DNA from: Dongia rigui
Lineage (GTDB): Bacteria > Pseudomonadota > Alphaproteobacteria > Dongiales > Dongiaceae
Reading direction: 5' to 3'
Assembly: GCF_034044635.1 (NCBI RefSeq)
Contig: NZ_JAXCLX010000002.1
Location: 372,001-436,000, forward strand
Length of the DNA stretch: 64,000 bases
Made by a program: the position numbers and the translations under genes
Notes under the pieces: generated by a model
Seen by the model: the letters and a program-made list of their open reading frames with translations, nothing else
Databases searched by the model: none
What the model was told of the DNA's origin: nothing
In this document: piece by piece, positions 18,992-44,091 of the stretch
How positions within the stretch are numbered: position 1 is the stretch's first letter
Layout of the letters: the number at the start of each line of letters is the position of its first letter

Positions 18992-19180
18992 CGAGAACCC
19001 TAAGGGATGGGACGGTTGTCCCGCAAGCCTCCTTTGGTCCTGCGACAGATCTGCCAAGCATCGGACGCGGTTCCCGACCATCCGGTCAAGCGACAAGTTG
19101 GGGACGCCCAAAGTCGCCATGGTACGCGAAGGCGTATCATCCACGAGTTCCTTGTCGGCACCGTTCGGTTATCCAGCTAA

Positions 19181-19215
19181 ACTCGTGGATGGTCGGCCTA
19201 CGCCGACCATGACGG
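19181..19215 (+). repeat. family D palindromic repeat, copy 1
   Basis: Copy of an approximately 34-bp element beginning ACTCGTGGATGGTCGGCC and ending CGCCGACCATGACG, itself a stem-loop (GGTCGGC/GCCGACC). Together with copy 2 (19841-19874, opposite orientation) it brackets the secreted protein gene 19262-19819. Confidence 0.85.
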
Positions 19216-31370: not shown

Positions 31371-31437
31371 CCTCCCTAAGCTCCCATCACTTCCTGCAAA
31401 GACGCCAATCCCTTTCATTGAGAACAAGAGAGTCGCC

Positions 31438-32868
31438 ATGTCTAACGAACTCAAATTCTATATCAACGGTCAGTGGGTCGATCCGGTGAAGCCGGCGACG
31501 CTCGACGTCATCAATCCGGCGACGGAAGAAGCCTATGTGAAGATCTCGGTCGGCAGCGCCGCCGATGTCGACAAGGCCGTGGCCGCCGCCAAGGCCGCCT
31601 TCCCGAAATTCACCAAGACAACCAAAGCCGAGCGCCTGGCGCTGCTCAGAAAGATCCTCGAGGTCTACAACAAACGTGGCGAAGACATTGCCAAGGCCGT
31701 TTCAGACGAAATGGGTGCGCCCATGTCCTGGGCGCGCGATGCGCAGGTATGGGCCGGCCGTGTCCACCTCGAAGCCACCATCAAGGCGCTTGAAGCGTTC
31801 GAATTCGAACATCAGCGCGGCACCAGCCGCATCGTGAAGGAGGGGATCGGTGTGGCCGCGCTCATCACGCCGTGGAATTGGCCCTTGAACCAGATCGTCT
31901 GCAAGGTGGCGCCGGCCATCGCCGCCGGCTGCACCATGGTGCTGAAGCCCTCCGAGATCGCGCCGATCAGCGGCGTCATCTTTTCGGAAGTGATGCATGA
32001 GGCCGGGACGCCGGCCGGCGTCTACAACATGGTCAATGGCGACGGGCCGAATGTCGGCCAGGTCATGGCCGGCCATAAGGATGTCGACATGGTCTCCTTC
32101 ACCGGTTCGACCCGCGCCGGCATCATCGTCGCGAAGACCGCGGCCGATACCGTGAAGCGCGTCGCGCAGGAACTGGGCGGCAAGTCACCGAACATCCTCC
32201 TCGACGACGCTGACTTCGCCGTTGCGGTGAAGAAGGGTGTCGAAGGTTGCTTCGGCAATACCGGCCAGTCCTGCGACGCACCGACCCGCATGCTGGTCCC
32301 GCGCGATCGCCATGAAGAAGTGTTGAAGATCGCCAAGGCGGCGGCCGAAGCGCACAAGGTCGGCGACCCCAAGGCCGAGGACACCGTGCTGGGACCGGTG
32401 GTGAGCGAGCTGCAGTTCAACAAGGTGCAGCGCCTCATCGAGACCGGCATCAAGGAAGGGGCAACGCTGGTGACTGGTGGCACGGGGCGTCCCGAAGGTC
32501 TTAACCGCGGCTACTATGTGCGCCCGACCATCTTCGGCAACGTGACCCGCGATATGACGATCGCGCGCGAGGAAATCTTTGGCCCGGTCCTCGCCATCAT
32601 GCCCTATGACAGCGAAGACCAGGCGATCGAGATCGCCAACGATACGGTCTATGGCCTGGCCGCCTATATCGCGTCCAAGGACATCGACCACGCCCGCGCC
32701 GTCGCGCGCGAGCTGCGTGCCGGCACGGTCAATATCAACTATCCGGACTGGGACACCTCCGCCCCCTTCGGCGGCTACAAGCAGTCCGGCAACGGGCGGG
32801 AATATGCCGATTGGGCCATTCACGACTTCCTCGAAACCAAGGGTGTCGTCGGCTACGGAAAGCCCTGA
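31438..32868 (+). CDS. aldehyde dehydrogenase, first of a tandem pair
   Basis: NAD(P)-dependent aldehyde dehydrogenase of 476 residues. The catalytic cysteine lies in NTGQSCDAPTRM and the general-base glutamate in VAQELGGKSPNI. The cofactor region has VSFTGSTRAGIIVA, the fold landmark is ITPWNWPLNQI, and the C-terminus is FGGYKQSGNGREY. The ATG at 31438 matches the start of the second copy residue for residue; the frame is open further upstream without similarity. The aldehyde is unknown; the puuB-like oxidase upstream makes an amino-aldehyde possible. Confidence 0.93.
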   Translation: MSNELKFYINGQWVDPVKPATLDVINPATEEAYVKISVGSAADVDKAVAAAKAAFPKFTKTTKAERLALLRKILEVYNKRGEDIAKAVSDEMGAPMSWARDAQVWAGRVHLEATIKALEAFEFEHQRGTSRIVKEGIGVAALITPWNWPLNQIVCKVAPAIAAGCTMVLKPSEIAPISGVIFSEVMHEAGTPAGVYNMVNGDGPNVGQVMAGHKDVDMVSFTGSTRAGIIVAKTAADTVKRVAQELGGKSPNILLDDADFAVAVKKGVEGCFGNTGQSCDAPTRMLVPRDRHEEVLKIAKAAAEAHKVGDPKAEDTVLGPVVSELQFNKVQRLIETGIKEGATLVTGGTGRPEGLNRGYYVRPTIFGNVTRDMTIAREEIFGPVLAIMPYDSEDQAIEIANDTVYGLAAYIASKDIDHARAVARELRAGTVNINYPDWDTSAPFGGYKQSGNGREYADWAIHDFLETKGVVGYGKP

Positions 32869-32890
32869 GCGATCTCTATCCGGTTCTGTC

Positions 32891-32966
32891 GTCATCCCCG
32901 GGCTTGACCCGGGGATCCACTGCCTGCAGGTGAGCGTGGATGCCGGGGTCAAGCCCGGGCATGACG
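32891..32966. repeat. palindromic repeat pair, family E
   Basis: Two facing copies, 32891-32921 (core CCCCGGGCTTGACCCGGGG) and 32935-32966 (core CCGGGGTCAAGCCCGGG), in the spacer between the two aldehyde dehydrogenase genes. Confidence 0.85.
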
Positions 32967-33112
32967 ATGATAAATGGAGCAGGTAGGCACCCAACGTCCC
33001 GTCACATAGCCGTCATGATATTTCGGGACTTTGGCCATGGCGGCGAATGCTGTATGCCACTGCCATCTCCCACCCTCATTGGGTCAGGGCCTTTTTCAAG
33101 GAAAGCGCTATC

Positions 33113-34543
33113 ATGTCGAACAATCTCAAATTCTATATCGGCGGTCAGTGGGTCGATCCGGTGAAGCCGGCGACCATCGACGTCATCAATCCGGCAACCG
33201 AGGAAGCCTTTACCCAGATTTCCATGGGCTCCGCTGCCGATGTGAACAAGGCCGTCGCTGCCGCCAAGGCCGCTTTCCCGAAATTCAGCCAGACCAGCAA
33301 GGCCGAACGCGTCGCCCTGCTGAAGCGCATTCTCGCGGAATACAACAAGCGCTTCGACGACATCGCCAAGGCGGTCTCGGATGAAATGGGTGCGCCGATG
33401 TCGCTGGCGACCGATTCCCAGGCCTGGATCGGCCGCGCACATCTTGAAGCCACCATCAAATCGCTCGAGGAATTCACCTTCGAGGAACAGCGCGGCGAAA
33501 CCCGCATCGTCCGGGAAGGGATCGGCGTCGTCGGCCTCATCACGCCGTGGAACTGGCCGCTCAATCAGATCGTCTGCAAGGTGGCGCCGGCCATCGCCGC
33601 CGGCTGCACAATGGTGTTGAAGCCCTCCGAAGTGGCGCCGATCAACGCCATCATCTTTGCCGAAGTGATGCATGAAGCGGGCGTGCCGGCCGGCGTCTTC
33701 AATCTGGTGAATGGCGATGGGCCGAATGTCGGCCAGGTCATCGCCGGCCATCCGGATGTCGACATGGTCTCCTTCACGGGTTCGACCCGCGCCGGCATCA
33801 TCGTCGCCAAGACCGCGGCTGATACCGTGAAGCGTGTCAGTCAGGAGTTGGGCGGCAAGTCGCCCAACATCATCCTGCCCGACGCCGATCTCGAAACCGC
33901 GGTCGCCAAGGGCATCCAGAACTGCTTCAGCAATAGCGGCCAGTCCTGCAACGCGCCCACGCGCATGCTGGTGCCGGCCGGCCGTCACGACGAGGCGCTG
34001 AAGATCGCCAAGAAGACCGCCGAAGCCCATAAGGTCGGCGATCCGAAATCGGCCGACACGGTGCTGGGCCCGGTGGTGAGCGAGATCCAGTTCAACAAGA
34101 TCCAGGACCTCATTGAAAAGGGCATCGCCGAAGGGGCGACGCTGGTCACCGGCGGCACGGGCCGTCCGGACGGCCTCAACCGCGGCTACTATGTGCGCCC
34201 GACGGTCTTTGGCAATGTGAAGAACGACATGACCATCGCCCGGGAGGAAATCTTCGGGCCGGTCATCGCCATCATGCCGTATGAGACCGAAGAGCAGGCC
34301 ATCGCCATCGCCAACGACACGGTCTATGGCCTCGCCGCCTACGTGCAGGCCAAGGACGTCAACAAGGCGCGCGACGTGGCGCGGCGTCTCCGTGCCGGCC
34401 AGGTCAAGATCAACTACCCCGCCTGGAACGCCTTCACGCCCTTTGGCGGCTACAAGCAGTCGGGCAATGGCCGTGAATATGCCGATTTCGGCATCCACGA
34501 CTTCCTGGAAACCAAGGGCATCGGCGGCTACGGCGAGGTGTAA
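33113..34543 (+). CDS. aldehyde dehydrogenase, second of a tandem pair
   Basis: Paralog of the gene at 31438 with the same 476-residue length and, by eye, identical residues at most positions. Catalytic cysteine in NSGQSCNAPTRM, glutamate in VSQELGGKSPNI, and the same ITPWNWPLNQI and FGGYKQSGNGREY. Differences cluster in residues 95-135 and around the active-site flank (CNAP against CDAP; LPDADLETAVAKG against LDDADFAVAVKKG), suggesting substrate divergence after duplication. The ATG at 33113 aligns with the first copy. The PaiB gene follows 8 bp after its stop. Confidence 0.93.
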   Translation: MSNNLKFYIGGQWVDPVKPATIDVINPATEEAFTQISMGSAADVNKAVAAAKAAFPKFSQTSKAERVALLKRILAEYNKRFDDIAKAVSDEMGAPMSLATDSQAWIGRAHLEATIKSLEEFTFEEQRGETRIVREGIGVVGLITPWNWPLNQIVCKVAPAIAAGCTMVLKPSEVAPINAIIFAEVMHEAGVPAGVFNLVNGDGPNVGQVIAGHPDVDMVSFTGSTRAGIIVAKTAADTVKRVSQELGGKSPNIILPDADLETAVAKGIQNCFSNSGQSCNAPTRMLVPAGRHDEALKIAKKTAEAHKVGDPKSADTVLGPVVSEIQFNKIQDLIEKGIAEGATLVTGGTGRPDGLNRGYYVRPTVFGNVKNDMTIAREEIFGPVIAIMPYETEEQAIAIANDTVYGLAAYVQAKDVNKARDVARRLRAGQVKINYPAWNAFTPFGGYKQSGNGREYADFGIHDFLETKGIGGYGEV

Positions 34544-40184: not shown

Positions 40185-40317
40185 GCCGCCCCCTCTCCCT
40201 AACCCTCCCCCACGTTGGGGGGAGGGAACTTGACCCAGTTTGAACGCGATCGTCATCGCGAACTTGGTGGAACTCCCTCCCCCCAACGTGGGGGAGGGGC
40301 GGGGAGAGGGGGAGGCG
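40185..40317. repeat. inverted repeat of the AACGTGGGG type
   Basis: Two arms (CCCTCCCCCACGTTGGGGGG near 40204-40226 and its inverse near 40275-40298) form a long potential stem around 50 bp of unrelated sequence. It differs in sequence from family F but has the same design. It lies upstream of the alcohol dehydrogenase and past the DUF6434 stop. Confidence 0.75.
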
Positions 40318-40322
40318 AAGCC

Positions 40323-40541
40323 TCATTTCGGATTGCGCCGCCGCTTCCACTCATCGGCCACGTCGCCCATGGTCTTTGGCCGGCCGTCCTTGATCCAGGC
40401 CATGAACGGGCGGTCGAATTTGAAATCAGCGCCGCATTGCGCGACCAGAAAGCGGCGCACATTCTGCGTGTTGCGATAGCTGGGCGTGACCGGCGTCGCC
40501 CGCGTGATCTTGGCGCTATGCCAGTCGAAATCACCCGTCAT
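40323..40541 (-). CDS. DUF6434 domain protein
   Basis: Small protein of 72 residues consisting of a single DUF6434-like domain: DFDWHSAKITRATPVTPSYR, TQNVRRFLVAQCG, FDRPFMAWIKDG and GDVADEWKRR at the end. The NTQNVRRF stretch and the charged C-terminal helix match SAP-associated proteins of this family, with a possible nucleic-acid-binding role, inferred only. Its ATG overlaps the EamA stop (ATGA, 40538-40541), so it is co-translated with EamA. Confidence 0.85.
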   Translation of the reverse strand: MTGDFDWHSAKITRATPVTPSYRNTQNVRRFLVAQCGADFKFDRPFMAWIKDGRPKTMGDVADEWKRRRNPK

Positions 40542-41428
40542 CCCGCCCCCTTCTTCCGCTCGCCCAACATGACGATGAGGCTCGATGCCACGATCATCGC
40601 CGCACCGATGATGCCGGTATGCGTGGGCAAGTCCTGCCAGACCAGATAGCCAAGGATCACCGACCAGACGAGCGCGGTATATTCGGTGGGGGCGATGACC
40701 GAGGCCGGGGCGTGGCGAAAGCTCTCATAGAGCAGATACTGCCCGGTCCCGGAGATAAGCCCCAGGCCAATCATCAGGCTGAACTCCAGCAGACCCGGCT
40801 GATGCCACCACCACGGCATGGTGACGCCGCACAGCAGCACGAAACCGCCATTGGTGAAGATCATCTGGTTGATGGTGGGCTCGGCATGCATGATCTTCCG
40901 GACCAGCATGGTGGCGAAGGCCCAGAGTGTCGCGGCCACCAGCACCAGCAGCGCCCATTGCAGTTCCGCGCGGCCCCCCGGATTGGCTGCGACGACGACG
41001 CCGATGAAGCCGACGATGACGGATGCCCAGCGCCACGCGTTCACCTTCTCGCGCAGCACGACGATGGAAAGGATCGTCACGATCACCGGTGCGGCATAAT
41101 AAAGCGTCACCAGATCAGGCAGGGTCAGGTGCTTGGCCGCATTGAAATAGCACAGCCACGCACTCAGCAGCAGCCCGGCCCGCAAGGCCAGCCCGCCCTT
41201 GTTCCGGCTGCGCATCACATTCATCACACCCGTCTTGCCACCGATGAACAGCGTGATGATCGAGATGGTGAGACTGCGCACGAACAGGATCTGAAAGATC
41301 GCGTAATCATGCATCACCAGCCATTTGACGATGGCATCCTGGCCCGAAAAGACGGCATACCCGGCAATCGCCAGAATAACGCCCCATTGCGTGTTGTCAG
41401 TCAGCTTGGTGTTGGTGGCGAGGCTCAA
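40538..41428 (-). CDS. EamA family (DMT) transporter with TTG start
   Basis: Ten-helix inner-membrane transporter of 296 residues. Helix 1 is GVILAIAGYAVFSGQDAIVK, typical of this subfamily; RSLTISIITLFIG, YYAAPVIVTILSIVVL, GFIGVVVAANPGG and PTEYTALVWSVILGYLVW follow. The start is a TTG at 41428 that overlaps the stop of the upstream gene (TTGA, 41425-41428). The first 14 residues (MSLATNTKLTDNTQ) are the same as those of the unrelated upstream gene because of a 52-bp direct repeat (see repeat entry). The substrate is unknown. Confidence 0.9.
   Translation of the reverse strand: MSLATNTKLTDNTQWGVILAIAGYAVFSGQDAIVKWLVMHDYAIFQILFVRSLTISIITLFIGGKTGVMNVMRSRNKGGLALRAGLLLSAWLCYFNAAKHLTLPDLVTLYYAAPVIVTILSIVVLREKVNAWRWASVIVGFIGVVVAANPGGRAELQWALLVLVAATLWAFATMLVRKIMHAEPTINQMIFTNGGFVLLCGVTMPWWWHQPGLLEFSLMIGLGLISGTGQYLLYESFRHAPASVIAPTEYTALVWSVILGYLVWQDLPTHTGIIGAAMIVASSLIVMLGERKKGAG
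41372..41423 (-). repeat. 52-bp direct repeat, copy A (inside the EamA 5' end)
   Basis: Copy A covers codons 2-19 of the EamA gene. Copy B lies 1517 bp away at 42889-42940. The two differ at only 2 of 52 positions and have the same orientation and reading frame. Confidence 0.95.
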
Positions 41429-42945
41429 TTTGCGCTGCCTTCGATTGCATAGCCCGGCGGCGGAACGAGTGCCATCGTTCTTTCGCAAACAGCCGTCAGT
41501 CCGTTGTCATGGATGCGGTAATAGGTGGTCGTCACCGGCCGGCCATCTTCTTCGCCCGCCGGTATCCAACTTGTGCTGGAAATGTATGGGCCGCTGTCGG
41601 TCAAGATCAGGCTGACGGCGTCGCCACCGTCATGGGTAAGGTCGCTGATGGGTTCCCATGCATTCTCTTCGGGTGGGTGCGTCGCGTCGACGGCGCTGAT
41701 GTCGAGCCACTGATAGGTATACCTCCCGGGTGCGCTCGATCGTTCGGCAACCCACCGTCGGCCACCCCATTCCGGGACGTCGATTGCCGCACGGCGATTC
41801 CCATAAACGTCCCGTTCCCAGGCGATCGGATGCTGTGCCAGGCCGAACGCACAGGCAAAGCGGTCGTTGAGAATGCCGGTCGTCGGTTTCTCGGCGCTGG
41901 GTATTGCGTCATGAAAGCAAGCCGGTTTGAGCAGTCCGCCTTCGGCCGGACGGAAGAGTGTCACGGATGGTTCTCGGTTGTTGACTGAAGAGGCGAGAAG
42001 AAAGGCGTGGCCTTCAAACATGGCGACCCGGCTGTCCGTATACCAACCCTTGTAGATCTCCGTATTGGACGCGTCATAGAGGCTCGATTTCAGGACCGCT
42101 TCCGTCTTGCCCTTCCGCTCGTAAACCAGCCGGTTCCAAGCGGAACCTTGCTGCGACCCGGCCGGGTATTGCAGGCTAGCCACGAGGTCGCGCAGGGCTT
42201 CGTCATCGATGCGACGTGCGGCGCGCAGCTGCTGTTCGATCGATGCCGCTTCGTCGGGAACGGCGGCAATGTACCAAGCATAGATGAAGCCAGGAACCTT
42301 GGCGCGCACCTCGAAGACGTCTTCCGGTGCCTCGTCATTGACGAAATTGAACCGCGCCTTTCGCAAAGTGTAGATGTCGGTGGCCGAGATTGTTGTCCAG
42401 GCCGGTTCCTGCGGAAAAGCGTCCGCGATGACCGTGTAATTGTCTTGATCCCGCGATTGCCGTTGCCAGGCGATCCGGTCTCGCCGCAATGCGGCCGCAC
42501 AGACCTTGTCGTTCAGCGGCGACGGGGCGACGATCACCGTCTTTCCGCGTGCCAGCCATTTCTCGATCTCTTGAAGGCGGGATGTGGTGAAGCCGGCGAT
42601 GCATTGGCTGCGGGTCTGCGTCTGCCCCAGCAACGGTCCTTCGCATATGGCGGCCATCCGTCGCTCCCAGCTTTCCTGCTGCAGTTCGAATATCTCACGA
42701 CCTCGCGGTTCGATCCGGTCAAGCGTCCGGGCAAGTGCAGCATCGACTGTGACGAACGCTTTCCCGGCATCGACATCCGTGCAAACCCAAGGATATTCAG
42801 CCGCGACCGGGCGTGCGCAGGCAGGCGTTTCCGCTCTGGCGTCGCCCATCACGGATGATAATCCAAAGGCAACACAAAAGAGCATCAGCAGAATAACGCC
42901 CCTTTGCGTGTTGTCGGTCAGCTTGGTGTTGGTGGCGAGGGACAA
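41425..42945 (-). CDS. exported LprI-like (DUF1311) domain protein with a copied N-terminus
   Basis: Protein of up to 506 residues. After the first 14 residues shared with EamA comes a signal peptide (VILLMLFCVAFGLSSVMGDA). A DUF1311/LprI-like segment follows: ACARPVAAEYPWVCTDVDAG, then DAALARTLDRIEPRGREIF, LQQESWERRMAAIC and CIAGFTTSRLQEIEKWL, a cysteine-paired helical fold known in periplasmic lysozyme inhibitors. The remaining 350 residues are unrecognised and beta-rich. The frame starts at TTG 42945; the ATG at 42885, just before the signal peptide core, is an alternative, in which case the repeat is only a leader. The stop overlaps the EamA TTG. Confidence 0.75.
   Translation of the reverse strand: MSLATNTKLTDNTQRGVILLMLFCVAFGLSSVMGDARAETPACARPVAAEYPWVCTDVDAGKAFVTVDAALARTLDRIEPRGREIFELQQESWERRMAAICEGPLLGQTQTRSQCIAGFTTSRLQEIEKWLARGKTVIVAPSPLNDKVCAAALRRDRIAWQRQSRDQDNYTVIADAFPQEPAWTTISATDIYTLRKARFNFVNDEAPEDVFEVRAKVPGFIYAWYIAAVPDEAASIEQQLRAARRIDDEALRDLVASLQYPAGSQQGSAWNRLVYERKGKTEAVLKSSLYDASNTEIYKGWYTDSRVAMFEGHAFLLASSVNNREPSVTLFRPAEGGLLKPACFHDAIPSAEKPTTGILNDRFACAFGLAQHPIAWERDVYGNRRAAIDVPEWGGRRWVAERSSAPGRYTYQWLDISAVDATHPPEENAWEPISDLTHDGGDAVSLILTDSGPYISSTSWIPAGEEDGRPVTTTYYRIHDNGLTAVCERTMALVPPPGYAIEGSAN
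42889..42940 (-). repeat. 52-bp direct repeat, copy B (5' end of the LprI-like gene)
   Basis: Copy B supplies codons 2-19 of the LprI-like frame. One of its two differences from copy A turns TGGGG into AGGGG, giving AAAGGGG upstream of the ATG at 42885. Confidence 0.95.
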
Positions 42946-42959
42946 GGTGATGCTCTGAT

Positions 42960-43076
42960 GTCTTCTCCTCCCACCTTTAGGGGGAGGTTGGGAGGGGGGC
43001 GGTTCAGTCCAACTCTTGAAAAGCTATCACTTGCGCCCCCACCTAACCTCCCCCTGAAGGGGGAGGGATCAAGGCG
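42960..43076. repeat. inverted repeat of the CCACCTTTAGGGGGAGG type
   Basis: An arm near 42966-42993 (TCCTCCCACCTTTAGGGGGA) and its partner near 43041-43071 (CCTAACCTCCCCCTGAAGGG) enclose about 45 bp. It fills the spacer between the dioxygenase stop and the LprI-like start. Confidence 0.7.
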
Positions 43077-43083
43077 TCAATCG

Positions 43084-44091
43084 TCACGCCACCTGCTCCG
43101 CATGCATGCCGTCGACGCCGTAATAGCGGCGCAGATTGGCGTGGATCGGGCGGGGCTCATGGGCCTGCAGCCACAGGCGCAGCAGCAGGCGGCGGCGGTT
43201 CTCGTCGGGCCAGTCCTCGAAGGACGTGCGCGAGTGGAGGGTGGTGTAGTTGTTGATGAAGGAGCATTCGCCCGGTTCCAGCTGGAACTCATAGACGAGG
43301 TCGTCGCGGCTCGCAGTCTCGTCGAGATAAGCGAGCGCCTCCTTCTCCAGCGCGTTCGGCTCAAGGCCCAGGGCCGCAAAGGCATCCTCGATATACTTGT
43401 AACCGAAGCAGATGCTCAACAGCCCCTGCGTCTCGCTGAAGACCGGCACGCGATAAGCGGTGACCGGCGGCTCGCCCGGCGCTTCCTCGCCGTTCCAGTG
43501 AATGCGGAAGCCCTCGAATAGCGGATCGAGGAGGTGCGGCTTGGTGGCCAGGATCTCGTTATAGACGGTGATGGCGCTGACGATGCGGCTCAGGCCCCCT
43601 GTTTGCGCCTTGCGCATGCACAGCAGGCCGACGATGTCGTCGGAATCGGTATGCATCCTGAGTTCGGCATTGGAGCGGTAGCCGCGATTGATCTTGCCGG
43701 GTTGTGGCACGTCGGCGACATAGCCGAGGCGGTCGCCCTTGCCGCTCTGGATCACCGGCTTGCCGAAATGGCTCCCCAGCCAGCCATAGAGCAGGCCGAT
43801 TTCATCAAGGCTGTATTTCTCGACCGGCCAGCCGCGCAGGATGACCATGCCGCGGCCTTGCATCAACTCACGCTTCAGCGCTGCGATGTCGTCGGCGATG
43901 GTCGGAAAGTCGTGGTGCGACTTGCCGATGGCCGGAATGCCCAGGCCTTGGCGCCGTGCTTCCACGATCGCCGCATCGAAGGCCGCGAGATGACGCGGGC
44001 CCAGATCGAAGGCGACGTCGTCCTTGCTTCTGAAATCGCTGCCCTTCCACCCCGCCGTACCAGCAATCGGCCGGCGTATCGCGGCACCCAT
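43084..44091 (-). CDS. TauD/TfdA family Fe(II)/2-oxoglutarate dioxygenase
   Basis: Non-haem iron dioxygenase of 335 residues with a jelly-roll fold. The iron facial triad is HTD in ELRMHTDSDDIVGL and the distal His in NNYTTLHSRTSF. The 2-oxoglutarate-binding Arg is in ENRRRLLLRLWLQ. LMQGRGMVILRGWPVE is the conserved N-terminal strand. Members hydroxylate taurine, phenoxy acids, amino acids or betaines; this one resembles the broad group of about 330 residues and its substrate cannot be named. It is divergent from a GFA gene, with 135 bp between the starts. Confidence 0.92.
   Translation of the reverse strand: MGAAIRRPIAGTAGWKGSDFRSKDDVAFDLGPRHLAAFDAAIVEARRQGLGIPAIGKSHHDFPTIADDIAALKRELMQGRGMVILRGWPVEKYSLDEIGLLYGWLGSHFGKPVIQSGKGDRLGYVADVPQPGKINRGYRSNAELRMHTDSDDIVGLLCMRKAQTGGLSRIVSAITVYNEILATKPHLLDPLFEGFRIHWNGEEAPGEPPVTAYRVPVFSETQGLLSICFGYKYIEDAFAALGLEPNALEKEALAYLDETASRDDLVYEFQLEPGECSFINNYTTLHSRTSFEDWPDENRRRLLLRLWLQAHEPRPIHANLRRYYGVDGMHAEQVA

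Follow-up and report, generated by a model that had tools for sequence, protein, structure and literature searches.

How two unrelated genes come to open with the same stretch of DNA is the question raised by a locus in the window studied here, a continuous stretch of 64,000 nucleotides from a Dongia rigui genome (G000; 4.66 Mb in 10 contigs). Read along the minus strand, the locus consists of a TauD dioxygenase gene, a 135-bp palindrome stretch, an open reading frame of 506 codons (hereafter, the newcomer), the transporter gene eamA, and further conserved genes (Table 1). The product of eamA carries the EamA domain (PF00892) above the gathering score, in two stretches (E 3.9e-24, 85.9 bits). 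The palindrome at 42946-43080 returns 27 BLAST hits, itself included, in the 2.46 Mb scanned, and is one of several families of dispersed palindromes that are present in the window (40185-40316, 19174-19214, and others) and reach tens of copies in the genus. Elsewhere in the window, at 31437-33411, two adjoining copies of a gene region, approximately 80% alike over at least 300 bp and 1675 bp apart, are apparently tandem paralogues.

Table 1. Features of the eamA locus (positions within the window) and of similar gene-end duplications elsewhere in the genome (positions on contigs C1 and C2).
Feature	Position	Strand	Description
TauD-family dioxygenase	43084..44091	-	Conserved upstream flank
Dispersed palindromic repeat stretch	42946..43080		Arms 42966-42998 and 43036-43068; site of a small membrane-protein gene in G001 and G003
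Outer copy of eamA 5' end	42889..42945	-	52-bp core 42889-42940, extended through the TCC codon and TTG to 42945; forms the present 5' end of newcomer ORF; matches sister G001 at TTGTCC and GACCGAC
Chimeric newcomer ORF	41425..42945	-	506 aa if started at TTG 42945, 486 aa if at ATG 42885; near-orphan, putatively exported
Putative signal peptide	42832..42945	-	n-region MSLATNTKLTDNTQR from eamA copy; h-region GVILLMLFCVAFGLSSVMG from eamA copy into insert; then DARA; hydrophobicity and function predicted
Putative illegitimate joint	42886..42891		eamA-derived GTTATTCTG meets newcomer CTGATGCTC
Unique insert, 1460 bp, between copies	41429..42888		No DNA relative (2.46 Mb searched), no protein relative in related genomes
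Inner copy of eamA 5' end	41372..41428	-	52-bp core 41372-41423, plus TTGAG; working 5' end of eamA
eamA, EamA-family transporter	40538..41428	-	Intact; TTG overlaps newcomer TGA stop (TTGA)
nrdJ 3' end duplication	C2:370051-370161 and 371111-371221 (0.8-1.9 kb before window)		111 bp, stop codon included, 98%, around DUF2927 protein gene
marC 3' end duplication	C1:1223758-1224170 and 1225958-1226370		413 bp, 98%, around 478-aa gene, no family match, GC3 0.56
Propeller-like gene 3' end duplication	C1:1446862-1446986 and 1448966-1449090 (approximate)		125 bp, 84%, around AraC-type and short-chain dehydrogenase-type genes, named from translations only

A preliminary description of this DNA had reported a 52-bp direct repeat at the 5' ends of the two genes, identical at 50 of 52 positions, in the same orientation and frame and with starts 1517 bp apart. 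These values are reproduced upon re-measurement, with both copies on the minus strand, and a genome-wide BLAST search with the inner copy locates it in two places only, the second with an E value of 4.9e-18, which excludes a chance origin. The shared residues and the TTG with which both frames were said to open are also present, since the newcomer ORF and eamA both begin MSLATNTKLTDNTQ and share GVIL further on, with W (eamA) or R (newcomer) in between; the same is true of the overlap between the newcomer's stop and the eamA start as TTGA, found at 41428-41425. The homology probably extends five bases past the core, as far as the TTG; within this extended block 53 of 57 positions are identical, and codon 2 is TCC in the outer copy and AGC in the inner, both encoding Ser.

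A relative that lacks the newcomer and has a single eamA 5' end, which the preliminary description had proposed to look for, exists in the sister genome G001, where TauD, a small gene, eamA, a next small gene (DUF), and alcohol dehydrogenase stand in the same order; the EamA proteins of the two genomes are 94.6% identical. The newcomer is missing from all 60 relatives searched, and samples of 385 genomes of the class and 398 of the phylum give one weak match, of approximately 100 residues. The empty site in G001, together with the absence of the newcomer from the other relatives searched, indicates that the newcomer was gained in this lineage, with eamA as the source of the duplicated 5' end. 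The target was preserved, as first described, eamA being intact here and single-ended at the empty site. G001 and G003, the two relatives that keep TauD at this location, have between TauD and eamA a small membrane-protein gene, alike in the two at E 7.3e-12, of which no copy was found in G000, where the palindrome occupies its place. Thus, of the original proposal of an insertion near codon 19 of eamA with duplication of its 5' end, the gain and the duplication stand, but the insertion was not a clean one, the small gene being missing here. In three further relatives (G002, G004, and G006) eamA adjoins a GFA-family gene, with no TauD in the stretches examined, and this differing gene content points to the TauD-eamA spot as a variable site between conserved genes.

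The opposite history, in which the common ancestor of G000 and G001 already carried the newcomer together with both 5' ends and the insert was later removed from G001 by recombination across the 52-bp repeats, is improbable. It draws on the divergence of the copies, which differ from each other at 4 of 57 positions and from G001 at 3 (outer) and 5 (inner); the copy-to-copy distance is thus about equal to the distance from G001, so that the duplication may be old or recent. However, deletion between repeats could not have restored the small gene common to G001 and G003, unless this gene was separately lost in G000, and none of the other relatives searched carries the newcomer.

The newcomer is a near-orphan with low GC3. 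Its GC content by codon position (0.63/0.51/0.68) follows a coding-like pattern, with a GC3 of 0.68 as compared to 0.83 in the neighbouring genes. Searches of Pfam, NCBIfam, PADLOC, and solved structures yielded nothing reliable, and no relative was encountered on scanning genome and viral contigs or plasmids; weak matches in G004 and G003 were dismissed, as they lie in a ribosomal-protein gene region and contain stops. The name 'LprI-like', by which the gene had been introduced, loses its support in Pfam and NCBIfam, there being no match to LprI (PF07007) even at an E limit of 10. The sole hint in its favour is that residues 23-128 weakly resemble (30%) an LprI-type protein encoded by G066, whose own score is 16.5 against the PF07007 cut-off of 22.

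Where the second 5' end came from can be approached through the few differences between the copies. The outer copy retains the G001 states TTGTCC and GACCGAC, while the inner copy reads TTGAGC and GACTGAC. Within the core, the difference private to the outer copy is non-synonymous, changing W to R, and that private to the inner copy is synonymous, a pattern that suits the use of both copies, though it consists of a single change in each. An SD-like GAAGG lies at working distance upstream of the inner TTG, with a pairing energy of -4.2 kcal/mol, as compared to -2.4 before the eamA TTG of G001. With the start codon, the Ser codon, and the SD-like GAAGG all in place, the inner 5' end may be a donor's own eamA allele rather than a copy made locally from the target. 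To view the inner copy as an eamA allele through the start codon, preceded by the donor's native DNA, seems a better reading than to view it as the random end of an insert, which by our estimate would offer a correctly placed TTG followed by a Ser codon approximately once in 512 times (1/64 x 2/16); the donor-allele reading also explains the SD-like motif and the TTGA overlap. Two later changes following a local duplication are a possible alternative source of the TTG/Ser differences.

The history that we favour, with a probability of about 0.58, is the capture of a donor fragment through one homologous exchange and one illegitimate joint, after which the newcomer could be read from the eamA TTG of the recipient. 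In this lineage, a close relative would have supplied the captured DNA fragment, which carried the newcomer gene followed by an eamA 5' end with which that gene overlapped by TTGA, on the gene order that we infer for the donor. On one side, homologous exchange within eamA would have left no scar; on the other, the start of the newcomer would have been joined illegitimately to the recipient's eamA 5' end, at approximately codon 19, either directly, by homology-facilitated illegitimate recombination (HFIR), or, once the fragment had circularised, through a single crossover. The product would read recipient 5' end, newcomer, donor 5' end, and eamA body, leaving eamA intact behind the newcomer, while the latter, severed from its own upstream region, would become readable from the recipient's eamA TTG and would take its start codon and signal-peptide n-region from eamA. 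The left joint, at 42888/42889, is non-homologous, and the right side, with its TTG, Ser codon, and SD-like motif, is compatible with a scarless homologous joint, although no donor has been found. Ku is present in G000, G001, and G003, so that ends could be joined.

Several observations count against this capture. The newcomer was seen directly upstream of eamA in no other genome searched, and eamA contains no divergent donor tract, the identity between G000 and G001 being 0.82-0.92 throughout. Moreover, the lost small gene lay beyond the outer copy, and its loss needs a further event. The variant that involves a circular intermediate faces the additional difficulty that 52-57 bp is short for RecA. 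Gene transfer agents were considered as a carrier, and their marker PF13547 has no match in 7 genomes of the genus.

The main rival, which puts the original description in mechanistic form, is a staggered break whose overhangs of 52-57 nt in the eamA 5' end were filled in and sealed by Ku/LigD around unrelated DNA, so that the target site would be duplicated over a long stretch and both joints would be illegitimate. This reading, which we consider unlikely, shares with donor capture the presence of Ku in the three genomes, and would account for the closeness of both copies to each other and to G001. It demands, however, that TTG and a Ser codon happened to stand at the end of the insert, or that two adjacent changes followed, and leaves both the SD-like motif and the TTGA overlap to luck.

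The two histories can also be compared at other loci. A scan of 2.46 Mb of the genome for isolated direct repeats (C1 1-1.6 Mb and C2 1-856 kb, about half of the total) detected three further gene-end duplications around inserts of one or two genes, at nrdJ, marC, and a propeller gene, so that an event initially described as rarely seen so clearly has three more counterparts in this half alone. The insert genes at nrdJ and marC have low GC3. In the sister G001 the nrdJ end is doubled as well, around a different gene, which encodes a membrane protein; measured against G000, its far copy has 1 difference in 99 positions and its near copy has 8, and the two G001 copies are 9/99 apart. They look like two alleles, one imported and one resident. 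Over its final 200-300 bp, the G001 nrdJ gene diverges more strongly from that of G000 (p 0.005-0.02 with three window sizes, and 0.35 with a fourth, of 150 bp); the test is weak, its windows having been chosen afterwards and its p values being uncorrected for that choice. That repeat lengths differ between events (52, 111, 125, and 413 bp) is what one would expect of break ends; nevertheless, overhangs of 111-413 nt are implausible, and the distance between the G001 nrdJ copies is unlike that of fresh copies of one sequence.

A fourth reading would make the 52 bp the attachment core, within eamA, of a small site-specific integrative element, or of a cassette, whose insertion leaves the target restored. 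Such an element would produce direct repeats on either side, a restored target gene, and different nrdJ inserts in two sisters, but the insert of 1460 bp is one gene with no recombinase match and has no match in plasmids or viral contigs. In addition, the repeats, from 52 to 413 bp, have no evident common sequence or core, those at eamA, nrdJ, and marC being different gene ends, and the ends of the nrdJ repeat differ between the sisters; we regard this reading, in the form of an integrative element as in that of an integron cassette, as very improbable indeed. A transposon or insertion sequence with target-site duplication was rejected on similar observations, namely a single ORF, no transposase match, a repeat as long as 52 bp, and other lengths elsewhere. 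Two other kinds of repetition were encountered on C1: beside the marC scar, a 144-bp piece is 85% alike to a nearby chemotaxis-type gene, and at approximately 86-93 kb, 375-385 kb, and 686-691 kb there are large RTX-like repeat genes, whose internal duplications are long and in one case span 653 bp at 99%.

Under donor capture, the outer copy would have given the newcomer more than a flanking sequence. Translated from the TTG, the protein has an n-region MSLATNTKLTDNTQR, a 19-residue hydrophobic stretch (peak of the 12-residue mean hydrophobicity, 2.98), and DARA before the mature part. In its single-sequence structure model, which is poor (mean pLDDT 35.8), the best-scored segment is a helix at residues 11-28. 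The change from W to R in the outer copy places a positive charge directly before the hydrophobic stretch, and would add the charge that is usual in signal-peptide n-regions. The chimeric ORF thus plausibly takes its start and its signal-peptide n-region from eamA, export and the use of this start being predicted from the sequence. On the question of the start only, and without competing with any of the readings of origin, it is possible, if somewhat doubtful, that the outer-copy TTG frame is a relic and that translation of the newcomer begins at an ATG of its own, at 42885, aided by the new AAAGGGG. The creation of this motif by one mismatch, which had been pointed out earlier, is confirmed as a T-to-A change that strengthens anti-SD pairing from -5.3 to -7.2 kcal/mol, the strongest among the candidate starts, while pairing at TTG 42945 is weak (-2.7). 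However, the SD-like run stops approximately 13 nt short of the ATG, a wider spacing than is usual, and the ATG form, MLFCVAFGLSSVMGDARA, is without a basic n-region, whereas the longer form has K8, R15, and the 19-residue h-region; furthermore, pairing is likewise weak (-2.4) at G001's own eamA TTG, which presumably works. The W to R change also improves a possible ribosome site ahead of ATG 42885, so that either this codon or TTG 42945 may be the start used.

Arrangements of this kind have precedents. In Escherichia coli, incoming DNA with one end homologous to lacZ yielded 60 Lac- clones, 56 of which had part of the target gene end duplicated around the insert, over 109-950 bp in 14 sequenced clones; the explanation given was a single crossover by a trimmed, recircularised molecule, classical HFIR, whose products couple insertion with deletion, being rare (Amarir-Bouhram et al. 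2011, PMC3240628). The present locus resembles those clones in that foreign DNA lies between two copies of a gene end with one apparently illegitimate joint, and it displays both an insertion coupled to a deletion and a duplicated homologous end, the small gene being absent and the eamA end doubled. It differs in that the lacZ captures were selected in the laboratory, using a plasmid that shared 1 kb of homology with the 3' end of the gene, whereas this case is natural, involves 52-57 bp, and fuses a 5' end in frame. Genome alignments have led to the inference of short-segment exchange between conserved genes with one homologous side, at dimorphic loci of which 10-18% are flanked by direct repeats, 66-94% of these repeats being shorter than 30 bp (Genome Biol 2010, PMC2884548). 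Here too a short accessory segment appears to have been swapped between conserved genes, with insertion coupled to loss and no mobile element, although the repeats are of 52-413 bp and made of gene ends. Displaced gene ends are also known from T6SS loci, where, as with Rhs orphan tips, a newcomer joined through homology displaces the earlier gene end to a downstream position, where it persists as a remnant (PMC5361080); those are 3' ends of effectors under conflict, unlike the transporter 5' end and near-orphan described above. Overall, the forms found in this genome appear to fit the class of single-crossover or homology-facilitated captures.

The eamA locus is thus a real, lineage-specific gene capture with 5'-end duplication, and a tidy, instructive example of an already known kind. 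A bolder view, that gene-end duplication is a habitual capture route in the genus, that the doubled 5' end gives a near-orphan an immediate start codon and export signal, and that W to R was a first adaptive step, is speculative and in our judgement rather unlikely as a whole. The borrowed start and signal, plausible and testable, are the most interesting part. As a natural case accompanied by the sister's empty site, the locus illustrates how a single foreign gene can enter beside a working gene without harm, and how, in one step, it may acquire both a start and an export signal. Multiple scars in one genome, in turn, offer a way to count and date gene uptake of a type so far studied mostly under laboratory selection.
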